DNA of 64,000 nt from Serpula lacrymans var. lacrymans S7.9 (taxonomy: Eukaryota; Basidiomycota; Agaricomycetes; Boletales; Serpulaceae): positions 1-64,000 of the forward strand of contig NW_006763292.1 in NCBI RefSeq assembly GCF_000218685.1, in the 5' to 3' direction. This document shows, piece by piece, positions 13,261 through 45,446 of this stretch; the stretch's first letter is position 1; every line of letters starts with the position of its first letter. The position numbers and the translations under genes were made by a program. The notes below the pieces were generated by a model. It ran no database searches. It was not told where the DNA came from and saw only the letters and a program-made list of their open reading frames with translations.

Positions 13261-13319
13261 ACAACCCAGGAGCACAAATTTAGGGATGCCTGGTATTGCA
13301 CCCTTTGCCACTCATCATC

Positions 13320-18190: not shown

Positions 18191-18199
18191 TTTAGAGCT

Positions 18200-20322
18200 T
18201 CAAAATCAATACCAAAATCCTTGTCCTTCATCTGGTCTTCACCAATCCCTAGATAATGGAGATTGGCCAAATTTCTGTTATGGTAAAATTAGTGATGATG
18301 GTAACAGCCAAAATACTGGTACTTACAGAATGTCCTGGTACAGACCATCTCTCATTTGCTTCATCCACACAAGGCTTTTCTTCTGAAGCACCAACAGCTT
18401 TTTGAAATAGTATTCCCACCTTTAAATAAAATAAAAATCAAGTTTGACATACATAAATGATATTGTACTTGGTTTCGAAAATGCTCTCTGAGAATTCTTG
18501 GGTAGCTTTATTACCATTTACATATCCCCTGAGGGAACATTCAATCTGAAAAGAAAATGGAATAGAATAGAATGCCTTTGAAATGTTCAGGATAGCATAC
18601 TCCCTCACCCTTACACCCATACCATTGATTATGAATGGCTTTTGCTTGTTGAATGTCCTGGCCTTGAAAAAATAGTTCAATTTGGCGTAAACATGGGAGA
18701 ATGATAGCTCACTTTGATATCAAGATCACCATCAGCAAATGCACCAGTCTCTAAAAGCCACATTACAGCCTGCTTGATTTGAACTGGGGCCATATCACCA
18801 GGAATTTGATAAGCACCATTGATTATGATGCGCGCTTTGGCAACAATTTCTCCTTGAACCTGGGCAACAGCAGACCAAACCTAGCAACAAGATACATGAT
18901 TAGTATAACATTATTGGAGGTGGAAATACATACATAGTCAATCAATAGGATTTTGATTTCTTCATTACTTTGAACCTCTAAAAGCTTGGTTTGTAATTCT
19001 CTGCAACCTTGAGAGGCATCAATAAGTCTGTTCCAAGTAAACTTGAAGCGTGATGTGGGGGGAGGAAAACCCTCTTGAGGTGCAATGTATAATCTCATTG
19101 TAGCATGCCCAGCTGTAGCAAGGTCCACAAGAGAACTAGGAAACATAGCCAGGGTGATTCTAGTTCTTTTGGTAATTTTTAACAGTAAAGAGACAGCCGT
19201 AGGTGTTGAGATAGAAGTAGAAGTTGAAGACATCCTGGATGAATGTGTGGAAGATTTTCTGGAAAAACTAGAAGAAGAGGAGTACACCAATGATTTAGCC
19301 TTTTCCTGCCCAACAATGGGTCTGAAATTGGGCTAATATAAGCTGTTAGTGTTATAACCAAGAGTTTGTATACTCTGGAATACAACTCAGACAAAGCTAT
19401 AAAGAAGTGAGGGGAGTGGTTACCCTTTAGATAGGACCGAGTTTGTTATGGGTAAACAACAGGAGGACTCACTGAGGAGTCTCCTTGATCTATTAGGGTA
19501 TATATACTACTATAGGTTGTTTGTACATGTATATTGTATAGTTGATGGAGGCAGTGGCTGATGATGTCATGGGGCACAGCCCGTATGACCAGCTCCACTG
19601 CGTGAGAGACTTGTAACTAAAATAAGAAAGAAGGCAGTACAGTGTGAGAAGGTGGAGTTTGAACAAAATGGAAAGTGCCACATGGCACAGTGTGTGAAAA
19701 CTACAGAAGAGGGTTAAAGAATAGAATGAAATTTAAAAGTCCAGAAATTGTGTATCGTAACAATTAGCTCTATGGATGTAAGAGATACTAATTTAGAGAC
19801 GTACTTGCTCATCCAGAATTGATCCATCTTTTCCCCTGTCATCAGAATCTTGGGTAACAATTTAATATTAGTGTTTTGTCTAGAAATAATGATTGTTTAC
19901 TTTCAGCTCTGGCTTCCTCATCCTCATAATACTCATCATTATCCCCTGTAGGTGTGTGCTTTCTGAGTTAGGATCCCTTGAAAATTATCCTCATCGGAAT
20001 CATGGTCTGAGTCCATGGCTTGTCTTTTTCTAGGAGGGTTTAGTGGTGTAACTGGGTCATCATCATAGTTGTAAATATCCTCTTCTTCCATTACAACAGC
20101 TGTCCTTTTTCTTGTCTCTTGGAGGGGAGATTAATATACTTTTACCAAACCAGAATATATATATTCCAATACCTCTTTCTGAGCTACTTGGGTAAATTGC
20201 ACACCAGAATTCATAGCATCCACAATGCACTGATACTCCTCAGCACTCAAAGTAACTGTATTGTTTTAAGCCTTGGAGCCAGGAGCTTTAGATTTACCCT
20301 TGGAATTTATTTTGCCTGCCAT
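18200..20322 (-). pseudogene. DUF6532-like gene, decayed, split by a solo LTR (module 1, gene 2)
   Basis: The likely start is a Met at 20322 (MAGKINSKGKSKAPGSK), where an in-frame TAA follows within 20 codons and the frame then continues (LSAEEYQCIVDAMNSG). An acidic region (EEEDIYNYDDDP, about 20090) precedes the LTR at 19350-19762. Downstream the coding resumes at 19290 with a Ser-rich segment, RITLAMFPSSLVDLATAG and NRLIDASQGCRELQTKLLEVQSNEEIKILLIDYV split across the entry, then AQVQGEIVAKARIIINGAY, a QKPFIING block and FQIECSLRGYVNG followed by ATQEFSESIFETKYN. The last blocks resemble the DUF6532 pattern (ALVxTAxECxLxxxxxG ... FS ... Y), a basidiomycete domain of unknown function that is abundant in repeats. 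The plus-strand gene at 42181-43978 has the same layout. Confidence 0.6.
19350..19762 (+). repeat. Solo LTR-like element, family 1, copy 2
   Basis: 413 bp from TGTTATAACC to CGTAACA. Flanks are GTTAG (19345-19349) and ATTAG (19763-19767), a 4/5 match to a target duplication. It interrupts the minus-strand DUF6532-like gene. Confidence 0.82.
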
Positions 20323-20499
20323 TGAAAAATTAGACTATGAGAAATAAGTGAAAAGAGAATGGAGCGCAAATGAGAAGTCACCATTTTTCTGCAGAGTTTA
20401 GGGCAAGCCTTCTAGGCCAAATACAATTATACCTGACAAGTGCCACTAAGATTTGGCTGAAAAATAACATGTACAGTAAAGCAATATATCAAACAATGT

Positions 20500-21832
20500 A
20501 CTTATACAAAGGTCCTCATGGCTTCATTTTCCATCCAGCCATTTCTATCAGCAGCCCAATAAACAAACTCATAATCAGTATGAAGCACTATGGATGCACA
20601 TTTACCTTAATAATGAAGGTTGAGATGAGTGATATCAGACAACCTGAAAATTGCAAAGTCCCCATGGTTCAGCTCAATAACAAGGCCTGCCTCAACCATG
20701 GCAAGAGCAACCCCCTTAAATGATCCAATGGGGAGAACAAGACAATGCTCCTGATCCTTGCTATCTTGGTGAGCCTTTGTTTGCACATTGATGTTAATGA
20801 CAATTGACAGGAAGGGGGCGGTTGGGGAGCAATGGTTTGCTGGTAAGATAGATGCAACTTGCTTAAGCATCTGACACTCTTCAGGCAGGTGGATTTGCAT
20901 CTGATACAATGATGAGATAGCTGTGAATAAAGAGGGAGTACCACTTACAATACAATGTATCCAGTTAAACAGTTCTTCAAAGACAACTTTGAGGGACTGA
21001 AATAATTCCTGGTTATTACTGACGTCCTTGAATATATAGGGGATCATCTGGCTGTGATTGGTATGTTTGCAGCCCACTTTGTCAAGCATAGACGGTGGCA
21101 CATCAGATGGGGCTTTGAGACCCTGTAAAGGATCAGTATTAAGTGAACATATAGTAAGGATTTACTTTACCTTGGTAATGTGACGGTTGTACCATAACAA
21201 GTGAAGTGCTTCAAATGTAGAGTCAGCATTTACACAAGTGTTTTTCTCTGCCAATAGGTCAGGTTTCCCAAACACAGCTAGTAGGTTACCTGTGAGAGAA
21301 TTACAAAATTTTGCTGGAAGATTGGTACATGTGAATGCCATGAGTGTCTCATCAGAATTCCGTATATCCACCAAAAAACTTCAAATAAGTGAGTGAACAA
21401 TCGGTGATTAGAAAGTACGGAAAACTTACTTTGGAATAGCATCCATAGGGATGCAAATGTAGGCGTCATCTGATACCTTCCTTGTAGTGCACACCAAACT
21501 GGCGACACAAATAAACAATCAGGGGGCAATGGTGTAGAAAACTAATTACATACCTGTGATTGCAAATCTTTTATGTTTCTAACTTGGGCACCCTTCTCTG
21601 CACGCTCACATTTGCACTTTGTCCATACATTATTAGTTTGATGATCACACTTAGCTCGAAAACACTTGTTTTGAGGCATAAATTGGTCATAAGTAGTGCG
21701 TATGATTGTTTTCTCCATCCCTATACCTTTCAGTTGGATAGCGGGGGGTGGGGCTGGGTCATTTTCAGCGTCCAAAAAGTCTTGTGAGTCTGATAGAGAA
21801 GGGCTATATGGTCTGGGCAGGAAAGACAACAT
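20500..21832 (-). pseudogene. TET/JBP-like 2-oxoglutarate/Fe(II) dioxygenase, degraded (module 1, gene 1)
   Basis: Exons run from 21832 (MLSFLPRPYSP) through 21374-21162 and 21101-20607 to about 20500. The C-terminal part shows the double-stranded beta-helix signature of the family: an HxD pair in KAHQDSKD, the strand block CLVLPIGSFKG, then a long hydrophobic turn ending GDFAIFRLSDITHLNLHY with the distal His, and finally DRNGWMENE. This matches the TET/JBP-like oxygenases expanded in basidiomycetes, which in characterised members oxidise 5-methylcytosine or thymine in DNA. The iron ligands (HxD and distal His) are visible. The middle part requires small frame changes and I could not join every exon, so I call it a pseudogene, though an intact gene with several introns is not excluded. 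Published work links these genes to KDZ transposons; a KDZ remnant lies 5.9 kb upstream on the same strand. Confidence 0.65.
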
Positions 21833-22128
21833 TGATGCAAGCAGCTCATAGCCAAGCTGATGGAGGGGGATAGGAGAATAAACATTAACGTCAATGGTAG
21901 TATTGTAACATAATGCCCAGTGTTGAATATTGCAATTGTGTAATGTAAAGTTGTTGTGTCATGTAAGAAAAATGATGGAATATAGTGATGAATGAGTGAT
22001 GCTCACTTGAAGACAACAGAGTCAAAAAATCTATCAGAAGATGCAATATCAGTGCAATCAAACTCACCAGAAACTTGGTGCTAGGGGAATCATGTGTCCC
22101 TTTCTATGTTTGAATGAGTCTTTCAAAT

Positions 22129-24000
22129 CTATAGCATGGTCCAAGGCTTAGCTTCTGGAAAGCGCTCTGATTTGTGTTTTGAAAAGACTTTCCAGAAGTC
22201 ATGGTACTCTGGAGGTACCAGCCTCTTAATCTCTTCCTCGGGTTCTAGTTTGTCATTGTCATCATCAATCTTATCCAAAGACCTGAGCTTGGCATACACG
22301 TGACCAGCATTTATCCTTTTATTAAGCTTAATTTGACGGACATAACTCGGCTTACCCAAGTCACCACACTCCTGAGGGCAATGTGACAATGTGGCAACCC
22401 CTGTCTGCCAGTTGATCTCAGGATTGTGTTTGAATAACCAGGTCCAGCCTAAAATTAAATTAATCTTCCCTAGTTGGGTAGCTTCAGCGGTGACTTGTTC
22501 TCTGTGTCCTTGGTATTCATCAACAAAAGAACATTTGTGCATAATGCAGCCACCCACATTAAGTGTAATGTCAATGTTATAGACGAGAATAGATACATTT
22601 AATCTTACAAGAGGGTGTCCAATTTCCTCCGCCCAGACCTGATCTATGAAGATTCTGTTAGCGCCTGAATCAAGCAGTGCACTGGTTGGGCGTACTATGC
22701 CCCAGGCAAGGTTTTCCACACCAACATCTAAATCTCTTTTCGGAATAAATATGTTGTTGCAAAGTGGCTCCAAAGAAGAAGAAGAAGAAGAAAAATCGAG
22801 AGAAACATTTTTTTCTACTTTATGATTTTCTATATTTTTATTTTTATTTTTACCAGAATCAAGCACCCTAGTGTTTGTCTTGCTGGGGCCACGCTCCAAG
22901 GGAGATGCTGGTGCAGCGGTGGTATCATAAATATTACAGTTATAATTCTTCATACAAGTACATACTTCAGATAATTAATTGAGAAATCTATTTAAAAATT
23001 GGGGAGCCACCCCCTTCTTTCCGTTATTGCTCATGCAACACCCTGGAGCAGAGGCCACTTTGTTGTGGTTTACTTCATTGTTACGGGGAGCGAAGGCACC
23101 CAAGTGACCTACACTCTGAATTCTTTTCCCTGGGCCTTCATCTCAGCAACCTGCTAATCATAGAAGAAGGCCCTGATTTTGTCATACAAATGACCAGCGA
23201 AATTATTGAGCCAATTGTCCGGCTTCTCCATTTCTAATTGGCACGCCTGGCACCCTTGGTTATTTTTTTGTTGGGCGGCCTGCACCCCATTTCTGCAATC
23301 TTGGGACATGTGTCCCTCCTGGCCACAGTTATAGCAGTTGCCCTTGAATCTGCGCATTTGTCCGCTTTGGACCACACCAATATCCATAGGAGCACCCTGT
23401 CCTGGCTGCAGCCTAAACAGCTTGAACCCTTGAGAGTTATTTTGAGTTTGGTTTGGTGACCCAGGGTGCCTCTGGGACTAGTTATTTTTGGTGGTGGACC
23501 CGCCACCAAATTGCATAGTGTAGAGCCCCATGGCTCTACCAATTTTTCAAACCTCCTCAGCAGCTGCTAAAAGGTTCTCGCTCCGCATATCTTGTATGTA
23601 AAGCTGTTATGCAATAGCTGGTGACACATTACGCTCCAACAGCTCCACTGCGTGTTCATTTCCTAAACCCCCTTGGATGGAGAGGGCCAGGAACCGAGTA
23701 ACAAAGTCATCCATTCTCATGTTTCCTTGTTTGAAGGTACGGATGTGCTGACACACCCAGTTACGCTCAGCTTGAGGTTTGAAATATTTTTCAACCTCTA
23801 CTTTGAGATTGTCCCAGGTAGGCCAGTGACCAGCGGTGTAGCATTCCTGGAGTCTAACTTGGGCGTATCAACCCGCCACAGGTCCTTTGAGTCTTGACAG
23901 CACAACTTGCGTCCTGCTGCTGAAGAACTAGGGATTGAAAGCAATGACAACAATTTTGGCGTTGAATGTCCAGGTAGGGCAAAATTTATCTGATTCATGT
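22129..24000 (-). pseudogene. Ty3/gypsy gag-protease fragment
   Basis: On the minus strand a gag-like region at about 23900-23150 includes GHWPTWDNLKVEVEKYF and ends with a CCHC zinc knuckle (CYNCGQEGHMSQDC, about 23320). After stops, the frame 22953-22129 contains the aspartic protease active site ALLDSGANRIFID and the block LILGWTWLFKHNPEINWQTG. It ends with the start of the reverse-transcriptase linker (LVPPEYHDFWKVFSKHKSERFPEAKPW). The element stops there at 22129: no RT, RNase H or integrase follows. It is a 3'-truncated Ty3/gypsy polyprotein with several frame breaks, lying between the TET/JBP-like gene and the palindrome-rich element. No LTR could be assigned. Confidence 0.85.
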
Positions 24001-27718: not shown

Positions 27719-29897
27719 ATTCAGGCCAGTGTCTTGCCAAATATCATCATCCACATTGAGTTTGAAGAGGCCTTCACGAGAGATAGACTGGGGGGGGACT
27801 GCATTGCGAGGAGCCTTTTTCTGTTGAATAAGCACCTTCAGTTGATCACAAAGTCAATTATAGGTGCTCGTGAGTTTGACAATGCCAGGCTCTCGTCTTT
27901 TCACAGACACTTTGATTTGTCCGTGAAGCTTGCAGCCTGGTAACACAGTATCACACATAAGAAGATAAAATGCGACACTTATGGCTTACTGTCCGTCTAT
28001 AAGATTGCTCTAACCTCTCCAATTCAAGTTTTCACCATTGCAAACACTCTCTGATGCAGTGTTTCAACGCAAGCACATTTATACAAAGCTGTAAATAGGT
28101 ATTTTTCTTCAAACTTTCTAATTTAGCTCGATCTACAACTCCTAGTAGTGCCTTCTTTCAAGAGATGCTATCCTCTAATTGAGAGCACTTTGCACAATGC
28201 TCCAAAATATTTGCTTCTAATTCCACAGTGTCAATGCCTTGATCACCCAAAAGTTCTGCTTCTAGGTCTCGCACATCTTGGTGGCATATATCAAGCATTT
28301 TCTGCAAAGATAGGATCATCAGATTAATTGTCTGATTACCTTGATGAGGAGTGCAACCTAAATATTATAATTTCAGAGGCTAAACAGCCACAAAAAGATC
28401 AGGTACATACACATTAGTGGTTTAGTTTGTGTTAAAATTTGATGGTTCCACTGGTCCCGCAGAATGGCCTTGTCAGTAGATAAGTTTTGAAGAGCCATCT
28501 TGGCTGCATTGTTCTTTTGCTGACATTGCAACCATCTCCAAGATAGCCATTGACCAAGCCCAAGCAGCGATTATTTGCTCAGGAACTCAGTCCTATTTTC
28601 CAGCACAAATAGGCGCTGATGATACTATGGATGAAATCAGTGACACCCTGTGTTGGATGCTATAAGTACACTTACACTGGACACCCTCAGTAAGGGTATT
28701 AAATTTTTGATGGGGCTCCAGAATTGATCACAGCCTTCACTGTCTGTGAGTCCAAATCCTATGCACTTTTGTGGATGAAAAATAATTCAACAAGGCCATT
28801 GGTGGCCATATGTGTGGAATAATGATAGAGCAAAAGAGATATGTTGAAGGTTGCATCCCAAAAAATTCCACTTGAAGCAAGATCTATGAAGCTGACACGC
28901 AATATCATAAAGTATAACAATCTTTCTGGACTGTGAGAGGTTGTTGAGCAATTTTTTCAGGAGGGTGAGTGCATAATGTTGTTTTTCTCCTGCCGAGGTC
29001 ATATTTGCAAGCCAGAGTACGTGATTGTGCCTGCAAAGAAGAGCTATCAAACCAGTGCAGAGCATTGCCAAATCAACGCCGCAGGCTCCCTTATCAGGTG
29101 ATTGCACTCAGTTTCAAATAGAAAATCAAACCTCAATGTTTGACATACCTTAGCAGATAGCTGGTACCCTTTTTCTCTTAAAAAAAAATTGGGAGCGCTG
29201 CTTAGGGCTGTCACATTCAATGGAATTTGTGCAAACAACACCCTTACAAACTTGAGCAGTCAAATATTAATGCGAAGTGTGGGAGCCACAGGGGAACAGG
29301 GAAATATGCCTCTATGAAGGAGCTGCAATGCAGCAGGTTGGCATTTGCACCACAAAATATTGATGTTTTCTATACCTGGCCACCAGTCAGTGAATGTACA
29401 ACTGCTTAGACAATATTATATTCACTGAAAAATGAAACAGAAGTGACCATTAGTTTTCTCCCAAGCCCACAAGCACAGCCAGTATTCTTCCTTGAATCAT
29501 CAAAAGTAGGAGCATTACAAAAAGAGCGAGTTTGGGATAGCAGCGCTAAATATGGCCTGGTGAGGGAGGGTATAACATTGTCTCTCCACCTTTTTCATTG
29601 AGTATTGGACTCCAAGAACTCTCTCACTCGCCACGCCTCAGGATCTATTGTGACATGCAGAGTGTTGTTCAGTCCATTCTCCAAAATGTGGTTGCATTGT
29701 GGTGAACCATGCTGGGCCTCTTGATTTGGTAGGGAGTTATTAGAATGGCTGTCTCCCTTGGTAGGTAATGTTTGAGTGAAATGATGGCGCCCTAAGAGTG
29801 TCACAAGGGGCTCGGGTCCAGGTAAATATATATTCTTAGTACCTTGACCGCAATGCTTGAGAAGGGGCATGCATGGTTTAATTAAAACTGTCATCCG
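27719..29897 (-). pseudogene. KDZ-superfamily transposase, decayed (KDZ-2)
   Basis: On the minus strand the N-terminal part (about 29890-29595) contains YLPGPEP and LRIDPEAWRVREFLESN-like segments. Further blocks include IFPCSPVAPT near 29290, CRHNHVLWLANMTSAGEKQHYA, VILYDIACQLHRS and YGHQWPC near 28800. From 28740 GLTDSEGCDQFWSSIKNLIP follows in another frame. The extreme C-terminus DDDIWQDTGLN lies next to the family-1 LTR at 27718. These are canonical KDZ blocks, including the YDxxC block missing from KDZ-1. Numerous stops and frameshifts make it non-functional. It is a different KDZ lineage from KDZ-1, judging by low similarity between the corresponding blocks. It is bounded by LTR-like elements at both ends. 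Confidence 0.85.
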
Positions 29898-30239: not shown

Positions 30240-30244
30240 ATCCG

Positions 30245-31374
30245 GTCATGGATTTTCCCCACAGCATCATGGGCAAGTAAAGAATAATTGGATTGTTTGG
30301 CCTTACAAGTATACATTCGAGGTCGACAAAAAGACATCAGAAAAAGTCTGGAAAGTCAGTTGCCAGTAGTCGTTAGTGACTAGTGAACATCTAATTTTAA
30401 AATTATCTCACGGATATTGTCACATTTCTAAACATTTAACTTGAAGGCCCATCAGAATCTTTGTCCGTTTTGTAGCCTACTCATTTAGGCTAATTTCCTG
30501 AGCTCAAGTCCATATTTGTGAATAACTTGAAGTACTATACCTATGTCAATATGTATGTTATGAAACCAATTCCTCTCAAGATATCAACATTGTGGGCTGT
30601 ACAAAAAAGTCACACATCAACTTCTGCAACCTACTCATGCGGAGAGAGGGAAAAAGGCTCAAATCCAGATTGTAATCTGGAAAACATATAATAGTCTATA
30701 ATAGTATTAATATGCTATAGGTTACGGACTGTTTGATGCAACTGATCAAGTATTTCTCTGTGCTAGCGATGAGGCATTGATGAGATTGTGTTCAAATTGA
30801 ATTTATGGAGGTTGGTATGGCTAAAGTTTGCTGTGCCATTTCCATGACTCACTGGCACGCAGATTCAAGTTGCAATCCAGCTGTCTGTCATTCAAATGAG
30901 GAGCATTGATATTGATACCCAAGCTATAACTTGTGTCAACGTCAACACACACCAAGCACAGTTAAACCTAGTCTTGTTCCCACTGCATTGTGAGGGCATG
31001 ATGTTATTATAGAGCGGAGTTTGAAGTTGGAGGCAAAAAACATGTAAAATTCACTTGTGGGATCATGCCCTATAATATCTGGTGCATTTTGAAAGAGAAT
31101 CAGAAAACAATGTTTGTAGTACTCTTTTTGATTTTCTGATGGAACTGAGTGCTGTCAGAGGGGTGAAATGGGACCAGTACAATGGCCAAACATAATCTAA
31201 TTAGACTCATCTTTTGTTGGGTGTCTGGCTGACACTGAGGTTGCCACACGTGTGCCTCATGAGGCCCATGCATCCTTTTGCCTTTTTCTTTCTCCTCCTC
31301 CTCCAACAACTTCAGAAACATTAGACTGGGTCACATGCTACAACTCACATTGGCACTTATCATGATGTTGCAGG
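30245..31374. other. Intergenic, no gene seen
   Basis: About 1.1 kb without a convincing gene. Stops are frequent in all frames. The last 250 bp may include a decayed N-terminal part of the NACHT gene that follows. Confidence 0.4.
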
Positions 31375-32394
31375 AGATCAGTACACTACCAACATCACAA
31401 ACATCCAGTCTGTCACTCCCGCCAAGGATATTGTAGCAAAGTTGGATCCCGTAGATTACAATTGCTACTATGTACCGCCATGTATGGAAGGCACACAACA
31501 GGATATCTTCAAGAAGATCAACTGATCACACCGCAGCAAAGAACATTCTCTAGATTAAGGGCAGCCCTGGCGCGGGCAAGTCCACCATCGCTTCCAGCTT
31601 ACAATCTTGGTTGATGAAGAAATGTCTCCTTGATGGATTTTTCTCTTTTTGCCAAGGTGATGCATCTTTGAGCAATCCCAATGTACTTTGGTGTACTATT
31701 GTGCACCAACTCGCTGATTTTAATCCAAAATTTACATCCATTATCATCAAGACTTTGAAGGCTAGCTTTAACATACAACTGTGAGGTAAGGGTATGGCTT
31801 TGAAATCACACAGTAGATCAGGGCTTTTACTTTTACTTTCAATTCTTTAGGTATCTGGTCATCATAGCGGATGATCCGGATGAGTGCAGCAATTTGTTGC
31901 AGGAATCTCAACAAAAAGCTTTATTGGATACCCTCACAGAGTGGTCTAAGGTACTGCCCTCGATGTTCAAACTAATTATCACCAGTTGTGACAATCACAT
32001 CCCTCTCAATTTTTGTGAAGCCTGCCAATATATTGTTTTACCAACTGGAGACCAAATGACACCTACAGCTACAGATGATATCAATACCTTTCTTCACAAA
32101 CCTTTTAAAGAAATAAGAAAGAGGTTTCCCTTTCTACAAAATACTGACTGGCCTGGAGCTCAGCTTATTCAGAAACTCGCAAGTCGTGCTACAAGCCTTT
32201 TTGTCTGGGCAGAGACTGTCATGAAATTCATTGGTCAAGGTGATCCCCAACATCAACTATTATTGATCCTTTCTAGGGAGTCTGTAGATGACCAACATAA
32301 TGTCAATGGGATACTGTGCTATCTGGATAAAGTCCAAGAGGGATCAGTATGCAAGTACAGCGCTTCTGGGTATTTTTCCAATCAAACATCCTAG
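31375..32394 (+). pseudogene. NACHT-domain (STAND NTPase) gene fragment
   Basis: In shifting plus-strand frames a NACHT module can be followed. A lead-in ends MEGTQQDIFKKIN (about 31520). Then comes a Walker A loop GSPGAGKST (31562-31590 region) and FFSFCQGDASLSNPNVLWCTIVHQLADFNPKF, given here only as positions 31640-31735. After an intron the Walker B-like strand YLVIIADDPDEC (31851-31890) follows, then the long frame 31894-32394 with SKVLPSMFKLIITSC and RATSLFVWAETVMKFI. In filamentous fungi such proteins are NLR-like receptors linked to heterokaryon incompatibility and immunity. A stop lies near 31525, a frame change near 31550, and the coding ends abruptly at 32394 where the truncated Plavaka transposase begins on the other strand. 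No sensor repeats remain. Confidence 0.8.
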
Positions 32395-34178
32395 CAATAA
32401 ACGGCCCATATCCTTTCTCTCTTTTCCTCCAATCTGGTCTAATGCAGAAATTCCATTTTTGAAAAGATAAATACTATAACAAGCAGGAAGGGAGGCAATG
32501 TGCTGGTTAAGCTCCTTGCACCAGTTCACCATATGCTTAAAGCCTCCTTGGTATAGTTGATGGAGAATATTGGGGGAAACGGATAAATGAATGTCACAAT
32601 GAGGGAAGTTAAGCCAAAATGGCTTGTAAACACCACCAGAGACCTCTTTTTCCTTGCACCTCCGCTGAAATTGGTTGAAGGAGTTTACATTGAGTTTAGC
32701 ATCATGAATAACTTCCTCAGTCCAGGTCTGTGTATGTGGCTCCCCAGCAGTAGATTCTGAGAGCTCAGAAGCAGGTCTTTTGCATTTGGGACATGTGCCA
32801 TACTTTGTACATGTCACAAGACATTGTTCTGGATAATCTGCAACGTAGCAAGCCAAGATAGGATAGACTCTCCTTATAGCACCATCTCCCCCAATGACAT
32901 TAATTCCTTTAATACTAGCTCTCTCCAAAGGCTCTACTATAATCCGCATTGACTCATGAAAAAGACGCTGAACCCTTGAAGACTTCTCCTTTACAGTAAG
33001 CTGAGATCCTGTGGCTATGTTGACTGACAGATATCCTATAAGTATGCAAGCATGTTGGCTTGGCTTACAATGTATAGTTTCTGGGTATGTAGCCAAGATA
33101 GACAGGGTAGGCTGATTTAGAATTAGAGAATTGTGTAAGCTGGGTTTTGTCCATTGCAATGATAACAGGGGCCAAGGCGGCCCCAGATGGTAGATGAGCC
33201 TATTCCAAAGATTCTGTAAGTCACTGTAAGTGGGAGATACAGAACCGTGCTCACCTGAATAGCATGCCACCATTTTTCCGTCCACATTTCATGATAAATT
33301 CTTGATTCTTTCCTTGCATTGGTGAAAATCATTTTTGGGCGATAGACTATATGTTTGGCATGTGCAGGGTTCCCAAGGAGAGTCCTGATGGCTGAAAGTA
33401 CATCTCTATACTGGATAAGGTGTGTATCATTCAGAGTATCAGGAAAAGATATCATAGTTGATTTCCATTCAGCCCTAGATGGTATGCTGTAGTTAACAAT
33501 CTTGTGTAACCCACATATATCATGGTAAGAAAGCCCCAGCTTCTCCCTGACCTGGCAATAGTTTAAGCAAGATATGTAAAAATCATGAAATCACTGATAC
33601 CTGGTATACTTAATAGCCGATTAAAAGACAGGTGCCCTATACCATCTTGAATTGCCCAACATGCTACTCTTTAATCCATTCCTGAGGCAAAGGGGATGAA
33701 CTTGGGGTCTGAAGCTTCACCCATTTCTACATCTTCACTATCCCCACCTGCTGCAATTAATTCTCTTCTCCACCTCTGATGTAAAGTCTTGTCCATGCTT
33801 ATGACCTTGCCAGCTGTGGGATGTTCCACCTCCATATGTTCATCCTCATTGCCGCCTAGAACAATTGAGTGCTGATGAAGGGATGGGCCTGCTGTGTTCT
33901 CCCCATCATCAATAATGTCAGAATGTGTGATTGGAATGAATGAAAAAAGATCCTCTTGCAACTCCTGTAGTACTTTGCCAATTGCCTCCTTGGTATGCTC
34001 ATCATCTATTGACATGTCTAATCCACTAGCGTCTTCTCCATCATCTTCTTGTGACTGCGGGATAGCAAGTAATTGTAACTTTCCTTTGCAGTACCACAGG
34101 CATTTTTTTTACAGAGCCAAGATATGTGTTGACAGCATGAGCTGTTGCAAATAACCTTCCACATCTAGCTGGACACAT
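32344..34178 (-). pseudogene. Plavaka-type transposase, 3'-truncated
   Basis: The minus-strand reading begins with a zinc-finger-like start MCPARCGRLFATAHAV (34178), then frames at 34015-33671, 33455-33123 and 33285-32344. Characteristic blocks are HACILIGYLSV, LERASIKGINVIGGDGAIRR, VYPILACYVADYPEQCLVTC, CPKCKRPASEL, PFWLNFPHCDIHLSVSPNIL followed by HQLYQGGFKHMVNWC. These identify the Plavaka (CACTA-related) family of Agaricomycetes. The usual C-terminal third is absent: the protein stops at 32344 inside sequence that also carries the end of the NACHT fragment. Introns and at least one stop (near 33673) interrupt the N-terminal part. A family-4 LTR lies 129 bp upstream. Confidence 0.8.
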
Positions 34179-34306
34179 ATAGGGAGCATTTCTGTTAACC
34201 AATGTACAATGATGATATATAGGCAAGGAAATAATAGAAGAAATGGAAGTCTGAATAATAATGATGCTCTGAGTCACTGATAAAATGAATCTGCAATGGG
34301 TCTTGC

Positions 34307-34721
34307 TGTTACGCACGAAGTGCTTAACAAAGTCTGAGGGTTCGTCGAGGTTTTATAAAGAGACTTATCTGAAGACAAGTTCGAGAACATAGTTCTGAGG
34401 GGAGGTCTTCCAACGAGAGTTGGTCTTCTTCTGAGTAGAAGTCTGATCTTAGGAGTCTAGCTTTGTAAGCGTAAACTGCGTAGAATCGTATTAGAGAATA
34501 CTACTGCTGTTACATGGTATTTATAATGGAAAGGAATCGGTGATAGGAGTTAGGTCCTATCTAGGGCAGGTCCGTCTGTTGAAGACTAAGTACTATAATA
34601 GGTACTGTGAATGCGAGAGGAACAGAAGTGTATGTGAAGGAAATGAGTCATCGGTCCGATGGTATAACCAATGAGTAAAAAGAAATGAGTAGTCCTTAAA
34701 TGTCCAATAGAGATCGTAACA
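34307..34721 (+). repeat. Solo LTR, family 4
   Basis: 415 bp beginning TGTTACGCACG and ending GATCGTAACA, with 7-bp terminal inverted repeat TGTTACG/CGTAACA. Perfect target duplications CTTGC at 34302-34306 and 34722-34726. No reading frame. Strand is arbitrary. Confidence 0.88.
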
Positions 34722-35012
34722 CTTGCTATTTAGGGCAATGCAGCAATTACTGTTATAAGTAGTTCATTTATGTGCTAGTTAAAGTATAAAATATACAAAG
34801 TAGAAAACAACCACAGTATAAAGAACACAATTCAACATAGAGCAATAAAATAAGGAATATGAGTGATAAAAAGCAATTTAAGAAGCATGATGTTGGCATT
34901 TGTGATGAGCAGAGTCTAAGAGGCTAGATCTGTAAGCATTCAGAGCACTTTCTTTTCTTTTAAGAGCATTAAGTGCCCGAGTACGCACCCAAGTTGTCCC
35001 CATGAAATCTGA

Positions 35013-37455
35013 TTAAGTTGATTTGGAAGGTTTGACTGATGCAGAATACCTAGGTATGCTCCCCCCACTACTCATCCCTGCAATGTGCGTGACCACAAGT
35101 AGAGCATAGAATTTGAATCTATCATCACTTGAGCACCAGAGATCCAAGTGAGGTATAAATCCCTCTGGCCTTGTCAATGGCTGTCTCAGATGTGTCAATT
35201 TCTTCCTGCTAGTTTGTATAACATTGAGAGCATCATGAAAGATCTGCAAAATGGAGTCATGGTGGTGGGTGTCAACACCAGGAAGGGGGCGGGGCCAAGT
35301 TTGATGAACCTCTTGGGAATGAACGTCGCAGAATCAAAAATTGTGCTATGCAACCGTTCAAAGTAGGGGATCATAAATTCAAAGTAGATTGAAATATGTC
35401 CGTCAAGGAAACTACGGAGGTTATCAGCCTTGCCAAATATTGTGAATTTGTGATGCGCTGCATCTGTGCAGGTGAACTTAGTGTCAAATTCATGATTGAG
35501 CCATTTCCTGATTACCTCCCGCTCTATAAACACCTCGTCCTTGAATTGGTAGGGCTGCTCTAGTAGAATGCACATAGCTAAACTAATGCAATAGAAGGAC
35601 TCAAGACCATGATGTGCTGCGTGCTGAATGGGCTCTCCAGGTTGTGCATTCTGTATTTCTACAGCCATGAAGGGCTCTGTACCCTGAGCAAATAATGAGA
35701 ATCAGTTAGTACAGGCGGTAGCTTCAAAAACAAAACTTACTGTGTGTTCAAGGACGTGGTTTCCATTATCCACTGCCCACCCCTGGCATGCCAAGCGCTC
35801 CAAGGTCTTGTGAGCAGTACCTGTAGCAACCTCTATTCCCTACCCTGGAACATTATGGCCATGTATTAAAGTGTTGGCAAAGGAAGCTTGGGCCTGCTGG
35901 ATTATTCTTTATTGCTGTGCCACCCTTTTCAGCATGGCATCCAACATCTTGGCCGGGAAATCATGGCGGGCAGGATCCTCCTCTTCAGAGGAAGCTTCAG
36001 ATGACCCCTCATCAAATACAGCATCTTCTTTATCAAACTGAGATAGATCCCTAGTGGACTGAGAATATTCCTGCTCCTTTATCTTTGGCATTGCAGCCGC
36101 AAACCCCCAATCTGCAAGCAATCCACGACGGATACACTCATGAGGAGGCCTAACAACCTGCTTTGACCTGCAAAGAAGGCCAATCTGAGTTTTTTTGGTC
36201 AGCAATGAGTGAATTACTTGTAGAACCATCTTGGTACAAGATCCTGACTGGAAATGTATTACCCACAAGGGAAGAATAGTTGATAGAGCTATATGCCATC
36301 TTGTGGTCTTGTGCACCCATTAGCAACAAGGTACACATATAATATTCAAATTGTTGACACACTTGTGATATGGTCAATTGTAACAACAAAAAGGTCCTTC
36401 AAACAGTTGAAGTATGTTATAAGAGCTCCAGCTGGAGTGGTAGTAGCACGTATGTGTGCTCAAAGCTGATATGGCTGACAGGGATCTGCAAGAGCCATGT
36501 TTCTCTGTTTGGCGCTGGTCTCAATGGTTTTAATAGAGTTTCATATGTTGCTTGTACAATTGTACTGCGGAAGTGGGTGGCCATCCACTCCCTCTCCCCA
36601 CTGCTTTGAAACTGGGACCTTCTCCTCGCCAATCAAATGAGGTACTCCTTATATGCCCTTGGCCTCAAGTAAATGCAAGGTTGTACCCTCTGTTAAAAGT
36701 CAGCGGACATCATGCCAGGTATCTTTGATGATGATATTGACACCTAGTAAGGCAGAAAACTGAGGGGAATCAAAGTCGGCAAAGGGAGGGACTTGGGCAC
36801 AATGGACAACCATACCATGTCCATGAATACTGTTCATAATAAAGAGAATGCAATGCACTTTGAGTTCACCAAGCACTAATGTCTTAATATGTGTGAGGCT
36901 AGCCATGACATCATACCCCATGCAAATGTCTGTGCTGTGAGTAAAACCCAAGACAACATGTAAGAATAAAAGTGGCTGCTGATGGACATCAATTTCAGAT
37001 GTTACAATAGAACCACCTTGATCTATGTAAAAGAGAGTGAATGATGCTCCACGTAAAGCAAAGCCTAAGATATGGAGCCAGCGATCTTGTGCAGCTCTGA
37101 AAAATGATGCATGTCCCATCAGCTGAGAAATTTGCTTATGGAGGGGCAATGAGTTTTTCTCCCTGTCCTTGAGCTCAGCCAGTGCATAGACACTCCTCTA
37201 ATTTGCTGGTGGAAGAGCTTTGGGATTGGTGGGGTTGTCAGAGCTAGCACTCATCAAGACTAGGTTGGGACACTGTTTGCCACCACCGTCTTCTACTGAA
37301 CAGACTGAGTTGGCAGTGGTCCACCATCTCAAGGAGGCAGTTGCCCTGCTTGATAATGCAGAGTAGACCTTCAGTACAATGTTGTTAAGGAATGCTGCAC
37401 ACTCATCCTCCAAACCTGGACTCCATGGTTTTGTAAAGTCTAGACAGCCACTCAT
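35013..37455 (-). pseudogene. FunK1-type fungal protein kinase, degenerate
   Basis: The reading starts at 37455 with PWSPGLEDECAAFLNNIV, meets TAG near 37198, then continues with FYIDQGGSIVTSEIDVHQQP (about 37000), ending KDTWHDVR at 36706. After decayed sequence, the activation segment LLADWGFAAAMPK (about 36110) and an acidic insert follow. The block AAHHGLESFYCISLAMC (about 35610) follows and the coding runs on to 35013. This order and the H-x-LESFYC block are characteristic of FunK1, a large kinase family in mushroom-forming fungi. The catalytic-loop region around 36290 reads MAYSSINYSS, with no HRD, and the frame is broken in at least three places, so the product would be inactive. Same strand as Plavaka; no functional link evident. 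Confidence 0.75.
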
Positions 37456-38288
37456 TATTGTCCAGGATCTATCCTTGGTGCTTCAATAACCTGCATCATG
37501 TAACAAAACCAGCATACTGTATAGCATGGCTTTTGTCCCATATTGACCTGTGAAAATGTGAGATAAAGGGAAAATTACTGGGAGGAAATCCTCCAGTGTG
37601 CAGTACACTTTAAGGGGCACAGCCTCTTTCTTCAAAAGAGGGTCCATAAACCTATGACAATATTGTGTTGGGCCTTTTATAGCAAACCCACTAAACTAAA
37701 TAGCAAGAAGACAAAGGCTAGGGAGTCAGTGTGGGGCAGCAAAGTCAAGTGAAGTACACAAGCCTTTGGATGTGTGAAAGGTGTGGTGCAGCGGAGCAGC
37801 AGCGGCTATTGGAGTAGTTTATAGGCTACCCAGGTGCAATGTGATCAAAAAAGAGACTTACCAAAGCATTTAGAGATGAGGTGATGACAGATATTGATCC
37901 AGTAGTAGACATCTCAGGGATGAAGCTGTTTCAGAACGGCGGGTGAAAGCTAGTAAAAAAAGAAGGACTCATCTACCACCAGCATATTCACTATTCTGCC
38001 TTTGCCATCTCCAGAGGGAGTTCTGCATTGAGCTTAAATTAATCTGGATGTTTCCCATGTCTGTGGGCAGGACAATTCACAATATATTCATAGAGCTTTG
38101 GCTTTGGCAGTACATCCTAGAAAGGGAAGTGCTTGAGTGCACAAGCACTTCCCATATGTAGTAGTGGAGAGTTCTTGGCAGTATGTCCCAGAAAGGAAAT
38201 AATGTGATTAGATTAAATTCCGGGTGTTTCCACTATACAAGTGGCTTGCACTTTTTTTTGAATTTAGACCAGAGTATAATAGCAAGGG
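37456..38288. other. Intergenic with a degenerate direct repeat
   Basis: No gene supported. Segments around 38030-38130 and 38165-38260 share TTGGCAGTA--TCC-AGAAAGG and AAATT--TC-GG-TGTTTCC and may be a diverged duplication. Confidence 0.4.
38124..38153. repeat. Perfect 12-bp hairpin
   Basis: GGGAAGTGCTTG and CAAGCACTTCCC are separated by 6 bases (AGTGCA), so the 30 bases fold into a perfect 12-bp stem. Confidence 0.75.
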
Positions 38289-39088
38289 GAAAGAGTGAGT
38301 GTCATATCCATACTGGAAGACGGAACTCTGGCATTTGCAAAGGAGTTATTCTCCGGGCCCAAAACCCCCGAACCATTGGTATACTCAGGATTACGTTCCT
38401 CATTGTCTGCCGGTCAGCATAACTCTATGCTCTATTCCCATATGGTACTCCGGTTGTCCACTCCAATACTCCTGCACTGGACTTCTAGTCAGCCATACAT
38501 TTCTCCTGGCACATTCTAGTCTAGTATTCCTCATGGACTCTGTAGTTAGACCTTATGATACACTCCTTGCACATACATTCTCCTCTTGCTAGATAAGTGT
38601 CCACATGGAACTCTGTACCTACATTATGAGTTACTCCTTACAAGCTCCTGCTCCCCCAATAGTATATAAGCTGTAACTCCTGTACTCCATTCCTGCAGTT
38701 CAAATATCAACTAGATTCCCTCGCTTTCTTACCAGTCCTTTTCTAAAGTCCTTTCCAATCCTTCTCTAAAGGATCTTTACTCTGCTTCCTTTTATCCTCT
38801 ACTTCTCCTCCATCCACTTCCAATGAGTTAGAGACCAAGGTCCGTGGAAGGGTCTAGTGCATGAGCTAAGCCAATTCCCCATCTTGTCCTCCGTACTCCA
38901 TTACTCTGTCCTTGTACTCCACAGCTCTGTTACTCCAAAGAGGCCACAGTTCTAACAGTATATTTGAACTGCCACTTCCTGGACCCTCTGTATCCTCCAT
39001 GGTCAAACATGTACAAAACATCTCTCAGGGCAACACCAATTTCCTTATGGTTTCTGCTCATCAACCCCTAGAGGCATGATCAATCTCC
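38289..39088 (+). promoter_or_regulatory. Probable leader/LTR region of the gypsy gag that follows
   Basis: A pyrimidine-rich 800-bp stretch with AGTATATAAGC at 38660 and a CT-rich tract precedes the gag start at 39089. This fits the 3' part of an LTR plus leader, but no second LTR is present to define its ends. Confidence 0.35.
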
Positions 39089-40050
39089 ATGGCTCCAGAA
39101 CGCCCAACCTCACCTTGTACCCCCAGGGGTTCCCCAATCCCTCCCGACTCACCTTGTACCCCGGCCCCCGCTCCGGATTCTCCAATACCCGCTCTTGCAG
39201 ATTTAGATTTACTGTAACAACCAAGAGTTTGTATACTCTGGCGCACAACTCAGACAAGCAGTAGTGAAGTGAGTGGGAGTGGTTACCCCTTATGATAGGA
39301 CTGAGTTAGTTATGGGTAAACAACAGGAGGACTCGCTGAGGAGTCTCCTTGATCTATTGGGGTATATATACTATTACAGACTATTTGTATATGTGTACTA
39401 TACAGTTGATGAAGGCAGTGGCTGATGATGTCATGGGGCACAGCCCGTGTGACCAGCTCCACTGCGTGAGAGACTTTGTAGTTAAGAATAAAGGAAAGCA
39501 GTGCAGCGCAAGAAAGTGGAGATTGAACAAAATGGAAAGTGCTGCATGGCACAGTGTGTGAAAACTACAAAAGAAAGTTAAAGTGGAGAATGAAATTTAA
39601 AGGTCCAAAAATTGTTTATTGTAACATTTACCCCGTATGGAGCTGGAAAACAAGGATGCCGAAGACCTTACTCTGGCTCAAGCAGTTGCATTGCTTGCCT
39701 GATCATCCAGACATACCCCTGACAGCATCTCCGCATGCACTAATATCAGAGAGCCGGACACCTTTGATGGCTCCGACCCCCAAAAACTCTGCTCCTTCAT
39801 TATGCAGTGCTAACTTAATTTCAACAACCGTCCAAGCGCATTCCAAACTGACTGCGCAAAGATCAACTACACTATCTCCTTCCTTAAGGGAATGGCGTTA
39901 GATTGGTTTGAGCCGGATATCCTGACCCCAGACAACCTCACTCCCATTCCTATCTGGATGGATAACACCCATTGGTGTGACTTTCTCATATTGAAGCATC
40001 CATTAAAACTGATTGCAAGTCATTGTTGACAACCTATCTCACATTAAGCT
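39089..40050 (+). pseudogene. Ty3/gypsy gag fragment, interrupted by a family-1 LTR
   Basis: The gag starts at 39089 with a Pro/Ser-rich N-terminus (MAPERPTSPCTPRGSPIP), is interrupted at 39213-39626, and resumes with MELENKDAEDLTLAQAVALL (39638 on). The block EPDTFDGSDPQKLCSFIMQC, then CAKINYTISFLKGMALDWFE, is diagnostic of chromovirus-like gag of basidiomycete gypsy elements. A stop TAA interrupts near 39810, and coding ends about 40030 without zinc knuckle or pol. It belongs to a different gypsy lineage from the fragment at 22129-24000. Confidence 0.8.
39213..39626 (+). repeat. Solo LTR-like element, family 1, copy 4 (inside gypsy gag)
   Basis: 414 bp from TGTAACAACC to TTGTAACA with perfect duplications TTTAC at 39208-39212 and 39627-39631. 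Confidence 0.88.
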
Positions 40051-40744
40051 AACTAGTAAGAGTTCTCTATAGATTAATGATCTATCTTATTAAAGAATGA
40101 TGTTATTTTGTTCTCCTGCCTTTTCCTGTATTCTGTGTAGAAATCTGGGGAATACACCTGACACCCACCATGCATAATATGTCCACCAGGTCTAGGGCCT
40201 TTAGAAACATCTGGAAATTCTTGTGTCCCTCAACTTGCTGCAAGACTCAAGGCAACTCAATCAGACACACCTGGAACTTCACAAAATTCTGAAAGCAGAA
40301 TTTGATCATCAACATCTGGACTAAACAACAGGAGGCATCACCCATACCCTGGAGACGCTGGAAGGTCAAGGCCTTGCCCTAGGAATAGAATGCCCTTAGT
40401 CAGTAGGTCCCAATGGAGGCTTGGGGAAGATTTGGTATGTACTTTGCGTGTCTCATCCAAGGCCTTCATATCTGCTTTGGCATGCGGCCATTTTGACTCA
40501 ACATAATCCAACCCAGCTATTTGGGTCTCGAGCATCAAAGCCGTTGTTTGCCAAACTATTTGGTGTAGTGCTGGAACACTGGAGGGTGCTGTGTTTGCGT
40601 GCACAGATTTAGTAGGGCAGGAAGTGGGCGTGTCTTTGATGTTAATGTTGAGTGTTATAAATCTAGCTATGAGGGCACAAAGGTGAGTCCAAATTGTTAG
40701 TTTATTGACCTTTGTTTTCGAGTTTTTTGTTTTTTTGAATGCAA
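40051..40744. other. Intergenic, weak coding remnants
   Basis: A plus-strand stretch around 40150-40390 reads partly like protein (LNLLQDSRQLNQTHLELHKIL) with stops and could be decayed coding sequence. No assignment is possible. The minus-strand frame at 40338-40757 looks like a shadow. Confidence 0.35.
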
Positions 40745-41972
40745 CAGGACAGGCCATGACATTGAAAGATGTCTATGAGACAAAGATTGCGCATCTGGCA
40801 TCTAGTCCATCTGAGCAGACATTCTACCAATGGGTATCAGCCTGCTGCAAATACCTGCAGATTACTGCAGGTGGGTCAGGGTACTTACTAGCTATCATTG
40901 CAGGTCTTGACCTTCACTGGATGCTGAGCCAAGTGAGCAGCAAAGTTGTTTGTGATATGGCCAAATGTGTGAGGCATCCCCCAGCAGATGGTAAGTCCCA
41001 TAGCACCTATCCTATTCCCTTGCTAACCTTCTTATTTCTGTAGCTTATCGTGTATTGATTTGTTCACGGATTATACCCACTGTTTGTCAATTGCGGGAGC
41101 TGCTTCCTCTTAGCCTCCCTGCCTTTTTCCTCAAGGATACAGATCAAATCTTTGATTCAATTCCTCTCAGGTGAGTTTTTTTGTTTTTTTTCCACTATTC
41201 TATTAACTACTTTGATTCATATACAGTAAAATTGCGCTTCCAAAATGATTGCTAGATGATCAAAGGGCAGCCCTTGTGCCATGTATGCCAACCTAAAAGC
41301 ATACATAAATGACTTACCTTTGTTCATCAATGGAGGAAATTGCACACAGCAATTTTAATGTGTTCATTTTTCTTGATGGAATAGGTATGGTATATCAGTA
41401 AGTTGTTCTATGTCATACATATATGGTTTGCGCTTTCTGAACAAAGTGTATGCATGGTCATGATGCTCCAGCAAAGCATCCAGATAGACTTGTTGGTGCC
41501 AACCAGAGTCAATTTTTGCCTTACCTATCCAGTGAAACTGAACAAAATGAACAGCTTTACTTTAACCTTCAAGCAGCCTTTGGCAAGGTGTTTGAGTGGG
41601 TTGAATCAAAGGTTTTTTTTTTTTCTGTGGACATATATGATTTGAATATATTTTCTTACAGATAGAACATTGTCTTCCTCAGAAATACTCTACTCTAGTC
41701 AAGGTAGCAGATATTTTTAAGGCTTATGCTTAGTTTTACCTATTGGTGATTTTTCTGGGGGTGCTCTTTTTATGTATGAGCAAGGGCTTGTTTTTGAGTT
41801 GTATTCTGGGGATTTTGTTATATTTTGCTCTGAAGAGACTACTCACTTTAACCTTGACTATCAAGGGGAAAGTTTCCTTTGTTTTACATACAGATGGACA
41901 GTTTAGATTTTGGTTAGTGACAGGAATAGTTGGGATGAAAATCTATTCTTCTATTCATACTACATAATTTTA
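40745..41972 (+). pseudogene. TET/JBP-like 2-oxoglutarate/Fe(II) dioxygenase, degraded (module 2, gene 1)
   Basis: Exons begin after an acceptor at 40748 with AMTLKDVYETKIAHLASSPS and WVSACCKYLQITAGGS to 40991. They continue after an intron (about 41043-41171) with RIIPTVCQLRELLPLSLPA and FFLKDTDQIFDSIPLS. A stop replaces a residue near 41249 in LPK*LLDDQ. Later blocks are AKHPDRLVGANQSQFLPYLS (41470s) and, near 41745-41960, DFSGGALFMYEQGLVFELYS, then GDFVIFCSEETTHFNLDYQG and DRNSWDENLFF. The last segment matches, in order and spacing, GDFAIF-THLNLHY-DRNGW of the gene at 20500-21832. The proximal HxD region is missing or destroyed around 41690-41745. Same-strand neighbour 209 bp downstream is a DUF6532-like gene, exactly as in module 1. 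Confidence 0.62.
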
Positions 41973-42180
41973 GCTAGAATTTTCTTTGTTTTCTTGATTT
42001 TTAGGGACACACACAAGCATACAACAGCCATCTATCTATATGTGTTTGTGGGTCCATATTGGGTTTATTTATGGTTCTTTTTCAGTCTACATATTGACTC
42101 TCTTTCTTTCTGGCTGTGATTTGCTGTTTGCTCTCCTCTTTCTAGTTGTTGCTGTTGTTGTCTTGTCCCATCTTATTAAA

Positions 42181-43978
42181 ATGGCTAGATTTACATGTTC
42201 CACTAAGACAAAGGGAAACATTTCTGCCAAAAAAATCCCCAGAGCTCCATCCAAGAGTCCATCTCCTCCATTGTCAACTCAGCCCCCTGCAAGGAAAAAG
42301 GTATTCACCCTTCTATGCTTGGGCTTATATCTTAATATTTCATTTTCAGGCACCTACTGGTACTAGGGGATCTGAAGGGATGTCAAAAGAAGATGAGAAC
42401 CTCCTTAAGACTCTTTTGGACAAAATGAAAGCAGTTGAAGCAGCTGATATAGAGGTAGCCAGTAACAGTATATATTTTAATTTCCAAGACCAATAACTAA
42501 TTATTATTCTTAGCTATATGAAAAAGAGCTGCTGACATGCTAGCACAAGAAGTCAACGGAGAAGAACACAATAGAGATGATCTAGTTGAAGATGAAAGCT
42601 CTCAAGTAAAAAAAAAATGTATATCAGACCCTTTCAGTGACCAGGAGGAAGATCAAAAACAGCACAAAGGCAACAATTCTCCTATAAATATGATAAATGA
42701 TATCCTAGATGATATGTCTGATGACTATCCTCAGCCTATCAACTGTCATTCAAACACTAAAGAAGACAATGAAGCCCCTCTGGACCAAGATAGCAATCAT
42801 GGTAGAGCCAACTCTCAGTCTTTGGATAATAACGCAGTAAGTGTTCCTTCTCTTTCATTTTCAGACTTGCTTATACTATATTTTATCAGGTTGCTCAAAG
42901 TTCAACAACCACTTCCAACTATGGATCAACTTCATGCTTGTCATATAGTCCTAGTCCTAACATTTTACATCCCTCCATCAAACCATCATCCTCCAAGGCT
43001 AAGCTAAGTTTTATAGCTTGCTCAATTTTTAAATATATTGCTAGTTTTGGTCAGAAAGCTATGAGGACATACATTGACACTCAAAATGGCTTTTCAAACC
43101 CTCTCAACTGTCAATCCATCTGCTGGGACTTATTAGTTAAAGCTACCAGTGAAAACAAATATGCTGCCTCCTTGGCCGACAAAATGAAGATTTTACAGGA
43201 TGACCAAGACTTGAAAGCTCAAGTATTGGAATATATGAGTACAACTTATTATAGCAAACATATATTAACTATTAATTGGAACAGGTTTGGAAAGGTTGCA
43301 CGCAGGTTAGAGGAGAGTTTGTTTCTAAGGCCAGATTAGGTATTCAATGCAAGTATAAACTTCAAGGTATGTTTTTTGTCCTCATAAATATATATACAAT
43401 CTGATTTGTTGTATAGGATAAAACATCTGACGTTACGCAACCATGGAAAAACAACATATTCAAAACGCTCTTTCAAAGTCAGTGGTGGGGACCTAAAGGT
43501 AAAAAAAGGAAATATAGTAAGAAAGACAACACATATCTCCATACACTTGCCCTGGTAGCATGCTGTGTAAGGTTTTTCTTACTCTTTTATTCATAAATTT
43601 AACCATGTATTTAGGTTGAATATGCTTTACTTAACACTATCAACAATAGAATATGTAGAATTCTCTGAGAATTCATTTGCTCCAAAATATGTACAATTTT
43701 GCTTCTAATTATTTCATATATTTGCCTCATTTAATTCATAGATGGGAGCATTATATGAATCTAATTCAAGGGTTCAGAGAATGTTCCCCAACATATCTGG
43801 CAAGTGTGTTTGGTGATATTGAAGAGTTTGTATGGTAAATTGTTCTCTCTAGTTTTTCAATTTTCTTTTTCTTATATTTTACAGGGGCAGTCCCAGTACT
43901 TTGACTTTGTCTGAATCCTCCCATCTCATCTTTGACTTCAATGCTTTAAAGGAGGCAGCTAGGGCTTTTAAGCAGTAA
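42181..43978 (+). pseudogene. DUF6532-like gene (module 2, gene 2)
   Basis: Starts at 42181 with a basic, Ser/Pro-rich N-terminus (MARFTCSTKTKGNISAKK). After an intron (about 42301-42349) follow GMSKEDENLLKTLLDKMKA and an acidic region (EEDQKQHKGNNSPINMINDI) to about 42838. The folded part is SIFKYIASFGQKAMRTYIDT, QNGFSNPLNCQSICWDLLVK and LADKMKILQDDQDLKAQVLE to 43285, then VARRLEESL or a spliced alternative. Further exons to the stop at 43976-43978 include WKNNIFKTLFQSQWWGPKG. The order of basic N-terminus, acidic linker, helical domain and C-terminal block equals that of 18200-20322. Function unknown. Breaks are fewer than in module 1, and with correct introns much of it may still be readable; I could not resolve the 3' third. 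Confidence 0.5.
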
Positions 43979-45415: not shown

Positions 45416-45446
45416 ACCTGATTAGTCATACCTTATTACTCAAATT

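Follow-up and report, generated by a model that had tools for sequence, protein, structure and literature searches.

Why do a gene for a TET/JBP-like oxygenase and a DUF6532-like gene lie side by side twice, in opposite orientation, in a short stretch of the genome of Serpula lacrymans, and to what kind of unit do they belong? The stretch, hereafter the window, comprises positions 1-64000 of contig C3 of the S7.9 genome (42.6 Mb in 29 contigs), the one genome from which all results below derive. An initial annotation, made from the letters of the window, had proposed that the two genes form a module, perhaps a mobile cassette. Our analysis indicates that the TET-DUF6532 pair is, taken as a whole, very probably the right-half cargo of Plavaka-type (CACTA/EnSpm-related) DNA transposons in S. 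lacrymans.

Both pairs are present as had been described, one on the minus strand (copy A) and one on the plus strand (copy B), with identical gene order and strand relation, and the motifs GDF[AV]IF, TH[LF]NL and DRN[GS]W are seen in each. In the profile searches which the initial annotation had recommended, the DUF6532 model (PF20149, cut-off 24 bits) matches joined exons of both copies; Tet_JBP scores remain below the curated cut-off. The features of the two copies are the following.

17797..22082, minus strand: copy A, right half of a family-A Plavaka element (TET, DUF6532 and right end), 91-95% identical to positions 9604-13669 of A17 (the copy on contig C6)
17797..17808, minus strand: right terminus of copy A, TTTTTCCTGATG on the minus strand
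18200..20322, minus strand: DUF6532 relic of copy A in several exons, PF20149 24.1 bits for exon 18677-18880 and 38.7 bits with neighbouring exons
19350..19763, no strand assigned: solo-LTR-like (long terminal repeat) repeat of about 414 bp in the DUF6532 gene of copy A, a gap relative to A17, where the flanks overlap by 4 bp (11942-11945)
20500..21960, minus strand: TET/JBP-like dioxygenase relic of copy A, Tet_JBP 19.7 bits (curated cut-off 34.9), its core (20505-21395) 49% identical to the metagenome protein P0006
40756..41969, plus strand: TET-like relic of copy B (family D), Tet_JBP 11.3 bits for 41721-41906
42181..43980, plus strand: DUF6532 relic of copy B, PF20149 26.1 bits for joined exons
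44356..44366, plus strand: right terminus of copy B, TTTTCCTGATG

Judged by their reading frames, both copies are inactive relics. An in-frame stop separates TH[LF]NL from DRN[GS]W in each of them. Copy A retains the HxD (as KAHQD) and the distal TH of its oxygenase, with an in-frame TAA ahead of the GKCASIVLH block, and carries a stop codon within exon 1 of DUF6532; its homology to the C6 copy ends at 22082 and is followed by a Gypsy-like fragment. In copy B the iron-binding HxD is gone with the stretch around it, and an in-frame stop precedes DRNSW; its joined TET core exons gave no Pfam match. The copies belong to different element families (A and D), and over the genes of copy B blastn finds no match to families A-C that reaches 150 bp. 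Counting itself, the stretch containing copy B (40740-44366) is matched 74 times across the genome, with identities of 66-100%. About 1.1 kb past its end at 44366 lies a second, similar Plavaka right end (45445-45489), the flanks of the two diverging straight after TGATG, and a stretch like the tail of copy B lies on C13 downstream of a DUF6532 locus with a divergent Plavaka transposase; the transposase of copy B itself was not identified.

Where does the unit that carries the pair begin and end? A blastn comparison among 20 loci of 10 kb and two 10-kb pieces of the window yielded three DNA families (A, B and C), in which homology stops sharply at TTTTTCCTGATG. Right ends are of one type in all three, and the right boundary of copy A is common to loci L014, L017 and L026. 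The search for a common element boundary suggested by the initial annotation thus led to a Plavaka end. The Plavaka profile has at least 139 matches in the genome (123 of 385 candidates scored), including one in the window (32518-33099, minus strand), and the order of family A is 5'-CATCAGGAAAAA, Plavaka transposase (minus), FunK1-type kinase (minus), TET (plus), DUF6532 (plus), TTTTTCCTGATG-3'.

This order is complete in a 12.75-kb copy on C6, covered by two adjoining stretches, with CATCAGGAAAAA at C6:2617416 and TTTTTCCTGATG ending at C6:2630165, flanked by CA on both sides, a 2-bp target duplication. Its Pfam scores are 176.9 bits for Plavaka (PF18759, L031:2329-3021), 68.9 for FunK1 (cut-off 24.1), 28.3 for DUF6532 and, under the cut-off, 19.7 for Tet_JBP. 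Nested in it is a 782-bp element (C6:2620586-2621367, L031 4087-4868) with the same ends and TA/TA flanks, whose empty site is found in the C1 copy. This nested element is non-autonomous and resembles a miniature inverted-repeat transposable element, and a similar left end lies at C1:1060529. In a second family-A copy (C1:250054-265333) the left-end motif falls no more than 8 bp away from where the C6 copy predicts it, and all four genes are again matched inside. A copy of family B, also on C1, ends on the right at 1071830 and has three candidate left-end motifs, at 1057910, 1060439 and 1060529; transposase, TET and DUF6532 lie in between. FunK1 was found in families A and C. The available parts of Kojima 2025 (PMC12730594) describe PlavakaB as having CATCA..TGATG ends and 2-3 bp target duplications. 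In Serpula, we observe 5'-CATCA..TGATG-3' ends together with duplications of CA (C6 copy), TA (nested copy, with empty site) and TG (element E, described below), and the terminal 12-mer occurs 394 times in the genome, against 119 for a reversed control.

How regularly do the two genes occur together? A genome search with P0006 gave at least 91 exon matches (74 of 214 first-look candidates scored), which merge into 58 loci of this TET subfamily. A DUF6532 locus lies within 4 kb of 22 of them, a count that, like that of Plavaka linkage below, includes copies within one family, which are not independent events. In all 22 pairs DUF6532 is downstream and on the same strand as TET. Random placement (n=200, contig extents set, here and in the random comparisons below, by the largest match coordinate) gave 0.68 pairs on average and never more than 3. 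When the Pfam model alone is used, DUF6532 lies within 3 kb of 11 of 34 Tet_JBP matches, ten in the same arrangement and one on the opposite strand; among the 19 Tet_JBP matches that are not of Plavaka type, none has a same-strand DUF6532 within 4 kb and one has it on the opposite strand. Neither window copy counts towards the 22 pairs (copy A was listed without partner, copy B not at all), because their exons fall below the search thresholds.

DUF6532 is in turn linked to the transposase. Twenty-two of the 53 merged DUF6532 loci are within 10 kb of Plavaka (random mean 3.2, maximum 8), and, conversely, DUF6532 lies within this distance of 22 of the 103 merged Plavaka loci. In 20 of these 22 cases the transposase lies upstream in divergent orientation, the other two being arranged otherwise (P = 1.2e-10 for at least 20 of 22 at an expectation of 1/4, the copies not being independent). 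By blastn and in our own grouping, the 20 divergent loci fall into 11 DNA families (three loci in A, five in B, two each in C, E and F, and six singles). Element E (L022) measures 4,740 bp between CATCAGG and CCTGATG, is flanked by TG on both sides and contains Plavaka (191.4 bits) and DUF6532 (69.6 bits), with no TET, FunK1 or KDZ match at the thresholds used; in L045, another copy of family E, the right end is present, and the 5.5 kb examined contain no left end of this form. As DUF6532 occurs, divergent from the transposase, in further element families, including at least one complete small element without a TET match, it is the more constant partner. Its N-termini in families A-D are basic, the first 35 residues from a fitting ATG carrying a net charge of +4 to +8. 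Protein searches returned nothing at E 0.001 for the DUF6532 open reading frame (ORF) of L029 (142 candidates), and only Serpula proteins, four including P0002 itself, for the DUF6532 part of P0002 (1251 candidates). In the literature searched, DUF6532/PF20149 appeared in one paper, as an item of a Ganoderma Pfam list which, in the portion available, also names Plavaka, KDZ and Pkinase_fungal. Separately, twin Plavaka copies of equal score at C1:5039969 and C9:504694 have an open transposase exon of 601 residues, with DUF6532 nearby (C1:5044248 and C9:517005); the C1 twin shows no TET match between transposase and DUF6532 and no TTTCCTGATG end within the 10 kb read.

What sort of oxygenase is carried? 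The predicted protein is TET/JBP-like. We aligned seven Plavaka-type rows with seven strong Tet_JBP ORFs of the same genome, three of which have KDZ within 5 kb. According to the available text of Kojima 2025 (PMC12730594), PE-type TETs are marked by HxE and AG-type (CcTET-like) ones by HxD plus an Asp at +11 (Asp337). All seven Plavaka-type rows read KAHxD (HRD, HHD or HQD) and none HxE, which sets them apart from the PE type; the distal TH is present in the rows that reach it, except for that of family B (TY). Among the strong ORFs, HxD is found in six and HWG in one. An Asp at +11, counted from the first iron His, occurs in four of the six that are long enough (Asn in the other two) and in none of the seven Plavaka-type rows, ungapped or as aligned, so that these are not of the AG type either. 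An HxD..H iron site with a downstream Arg is seen in alignments of P0006, P0003, P0007 and others; in the window, copy B is without the HxD and copy A stops ahead of the Arg. Outside Serpula, relatives are found in Suillus weaverae (47%), Plicaturopsis crispa (41%) and a metagenome protein (43%). A precomputed annotation assigns PF12851.14 to P0006. In the PDB, Naegleria Tet was matched weakly (E 0.8-1.2), and we therefore speak of TET/JBP-like only. A profile search of the PDB with the TET alignment (A3) returned one irrelevant match and no Naegleria Tet, and the PF20515 profile gave no match.

Other units than a Plavaka element might carry the pair. The initial annotation's mobile cassette holds good insofar as the pair is recurrent, fixed in order and mobile; it is not free-standing, being accompanied within the element by a Plavaka transposase and, in families A and C, by FunK1. 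That the pair has boundaries of its own and jumps between transposons would agree with the order and strand fixed in every pair and with the passive TET transfer between superfamilies deduced in Kojima 2025 (PMC12730594, available text). However, family-A alignments extend past the pair, over kinase and transposase, and terminate with the Plavaka end, and DUF6532 accompanies Plavaka where TET is undetected, which makes such a cassette very improbable. Still less credible, to the point of being negligible, is that the pair travels with KDZ (Kyakuja) transposons like other agaricomycete TET genes, a link which the initial annotation had also evoked and which our counts do not bear out. Seven of the 34 Tet_JBP matches in the genome do lie within 5 kb of KDZ, but they are seven of the 19 non-Plavaka-type matches and none of the 15 Plavaka-type ones. 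DUF6532 is within 10 kb of KDZ at chance level (5 of 53 loci; random mean 2.0, maximum 7), and the KDZ transposase (PF18758) is found neither in the full-length C6 copy nor within four delimited spans.

The two genes could also be one, encoding a fusion protein. In our reading, both parts are joined in six annotated Serpula proteins (P0002, P0005, P0008, P0009, P0010 and P0011, of which P0009 and P0010 may represent the same locus from two strains). Yet the C6 copy stops after MRTFV and a new ATG opens DUF6532, and the Suillus protein P0003 as well as P0006 end at the corresponding place; a fusion is thus unlikely, if somewhat less so than a cassette. These public S. lacrymans gene models merge transposon TET and DUF6532 into single hypothetical proteins. 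A more serious alternative is that DUF6532 is a passenger that takes no part in transposition, a host gene captured a single time by the Plavaka lineage. Its function is unassigned, and no Plavaka lies within 10 kb of 31 of the 53 DUF6532 loci. Against this, its divergent position is kept in 11 DNA families, some beyond blastn linkage, and it resides in a compact element whose only other family match is the transposase. We regard the passenger status as possible, if doubtful.

What might the pair do for the Plavaka element? The ends of the TET-carrying families bear dense arrays of GTGCTATA/GTACTATA-like repeats. In the C6 copy, four 8-mers, including GTGCTATA and GTACTATA, were counted 5-7 times at the ends and are 47-142 times denser there than inside, and the last 450 bp of all ten right ends tested in families A-C contain 12-19 copies of CTATA/TATAG, against locus medians of 0-1. 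In the mechanism that we envisage, the transposase would cut at the element ends; DUF6532, with its basic N-terminus, would serve as a second transposition or regulatory protein, in a role comparable to that of TnpA of maize Spm; and TET would oxidise methylated bases on the element, keeping its promoter and ends from being silenced. DUF6532 may thus be a core Plavaka helper and TET an anti-silencing add-on. Extended to the group, agaricomycete Plavaka elements might be two-component systems (transposase plus DUF6532 helper), one lineage of which has added a fourth-type, HxD non-AG TET and, in some families, FunK1, and has palindromic subterminal arrays; it would be a self-demethylating transposon, with oxidase and helper acting on the ends. 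This generalization is speculative, and we do not consider it the probable outcome.

Several observations weigh against this interpretation or parts of it. The ends of loci L022 and L024, which have DUF6532 without TET, contain one and no CTATA/TATAG copy, respectively, and have no arrays. Arrays therefore track TET more than DUF6532; the simple picture in which DUF6532 binds CTATA arrays is weakened, both examined ends without TET being array-free, and so is the comparison with TnpA. No DUF6532 is in range of 36 of the 58 TET loci, to which come the 31 DUF6532 loci without Plavaka mentioned above; decay and the exon-wise search may be the cause in both cases. Among TET-carrying copies, only that on C6 showed a matching target duplication: the second family-A copy has unlike flanks (CA and CC), and none of the three left-end motifs of the C1 family-B copy is flanked by AA, its right-end flank. 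Families B-D were covered up to a point short of their left ends, and FunK1 was not detected in the family-B loci examined. As for the oxygenase, the best score with Pfam PF12851 is 25.1 bits (P0006), against a curated 34.9, with E at or below 0.01 in four of nine proteins, and structure predictions were too poor to use (mean predicted local distance difference test score 38.7 for TET and 30.0 for fused TET-DUF6532, six rows each).

How does the element relate to known systems? TET-carrying PlavakaB is described from Agaricus bisporus and Gymnopus confluens in the available parts of Kojima 2025 (PMC12730594). It shares with the Serpula element the Plavaka transposase, the CATCA..TGATG ends, the 2-3 bp duplication and a TET/JBP-like gene, but its TET is of the PE type (HxE), whereas that of Serpula has HxD. 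KDZ elements with AG-type TET are likewise agaricomycete DNA transposons with a TET gene; they differ in their transposase and in the AG Asp at +11, which the Serpula Plavaka-type rows do not have. In the TET-carrying IS3EU of rusts, TET is also accompanied by a kinase gene, although IS3EU has an alpha-kinase, an IS3EU transposase and a 6-bp target duplication (same source, as available). Maize En/Spm (CACTA; TnpA, TnpD) has a transposase of a related clade (Kojima 2025, available text) and a second element protein, and the action of Spm TnpA correlates with demethylation according to the available passages of PMC10398659 and PMC1636069. The suggested parallel between TnpA and DUF6532 is one of role, not of sequence, and the Serpula element has a separate oxidase gene.

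The remaining pieces of the window include the left half of a family-A element.

32307..38241, minus strand: left half of a family-A Plavaka, 91-93% identical to A17 2310-7709, broken at about 34311-34721
32344..33590, minus strand: Plavaka transposase remnant, PF18759 201.9 bits at 32518-33099
35386..37695, minus strand: FunK1-type protein kinase remnant, PF17667 77 bits at 36361-37209, 73-87% identical to the C6 copy, in pieces

The halves at 17797-22082 (minus strand) and 32307-38241 could be one family-A element split by an inversion; they could equally be two truncated family-A copies, which would explain the arrangement as well. A candidate left end at 30335, with one mismatch, was rejected because family-A homology begins only at 32307. 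Outside the Plavaka pieces lie KDZ transposase fragments at 28676-29059 (minus strand, 130.5 bits) and 6764-7087 (plus strand, 57.8 bits). A 196-residue ORF at 31804-32394 (plus strand), which we take to resemble a NACHT-type NTPase, runs into the Plavaka half element at 32307. The solo-LTR-like repeat in copy A belongs to a scattered repeat of about 412 bp, found in the window at 19350-19763 and 39209-39641, at many other loci and also within element E.

Three points are new here: an HxD non-AG TET in Plavaka, its co-residence with FunK1 in families A and C, and the link between DUF6532 and Plavaka. In its available parts, Kojima 2025 (PMC12730594) reports no TET-carrying Plavaka from S. lacrymans, though earlier work implied an association, and reconstructs six TET-less Plavaka families there; its main text, as far as available, leaves DUF6532 unmentioned and names a kinase for IS3EU only, none for Plavaka. 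The present element fills this gap, with a TET of another active-site type that is useful for the question of whether transposons escape silencing by base oxidation. DUF6532 has been a Pfam model without an assigned role, and through its link to Plavaka a puzzle of annotation becomes a transposon function that can be tested, with which various "hypothetical" genes would find an explanation as parts of transposons.

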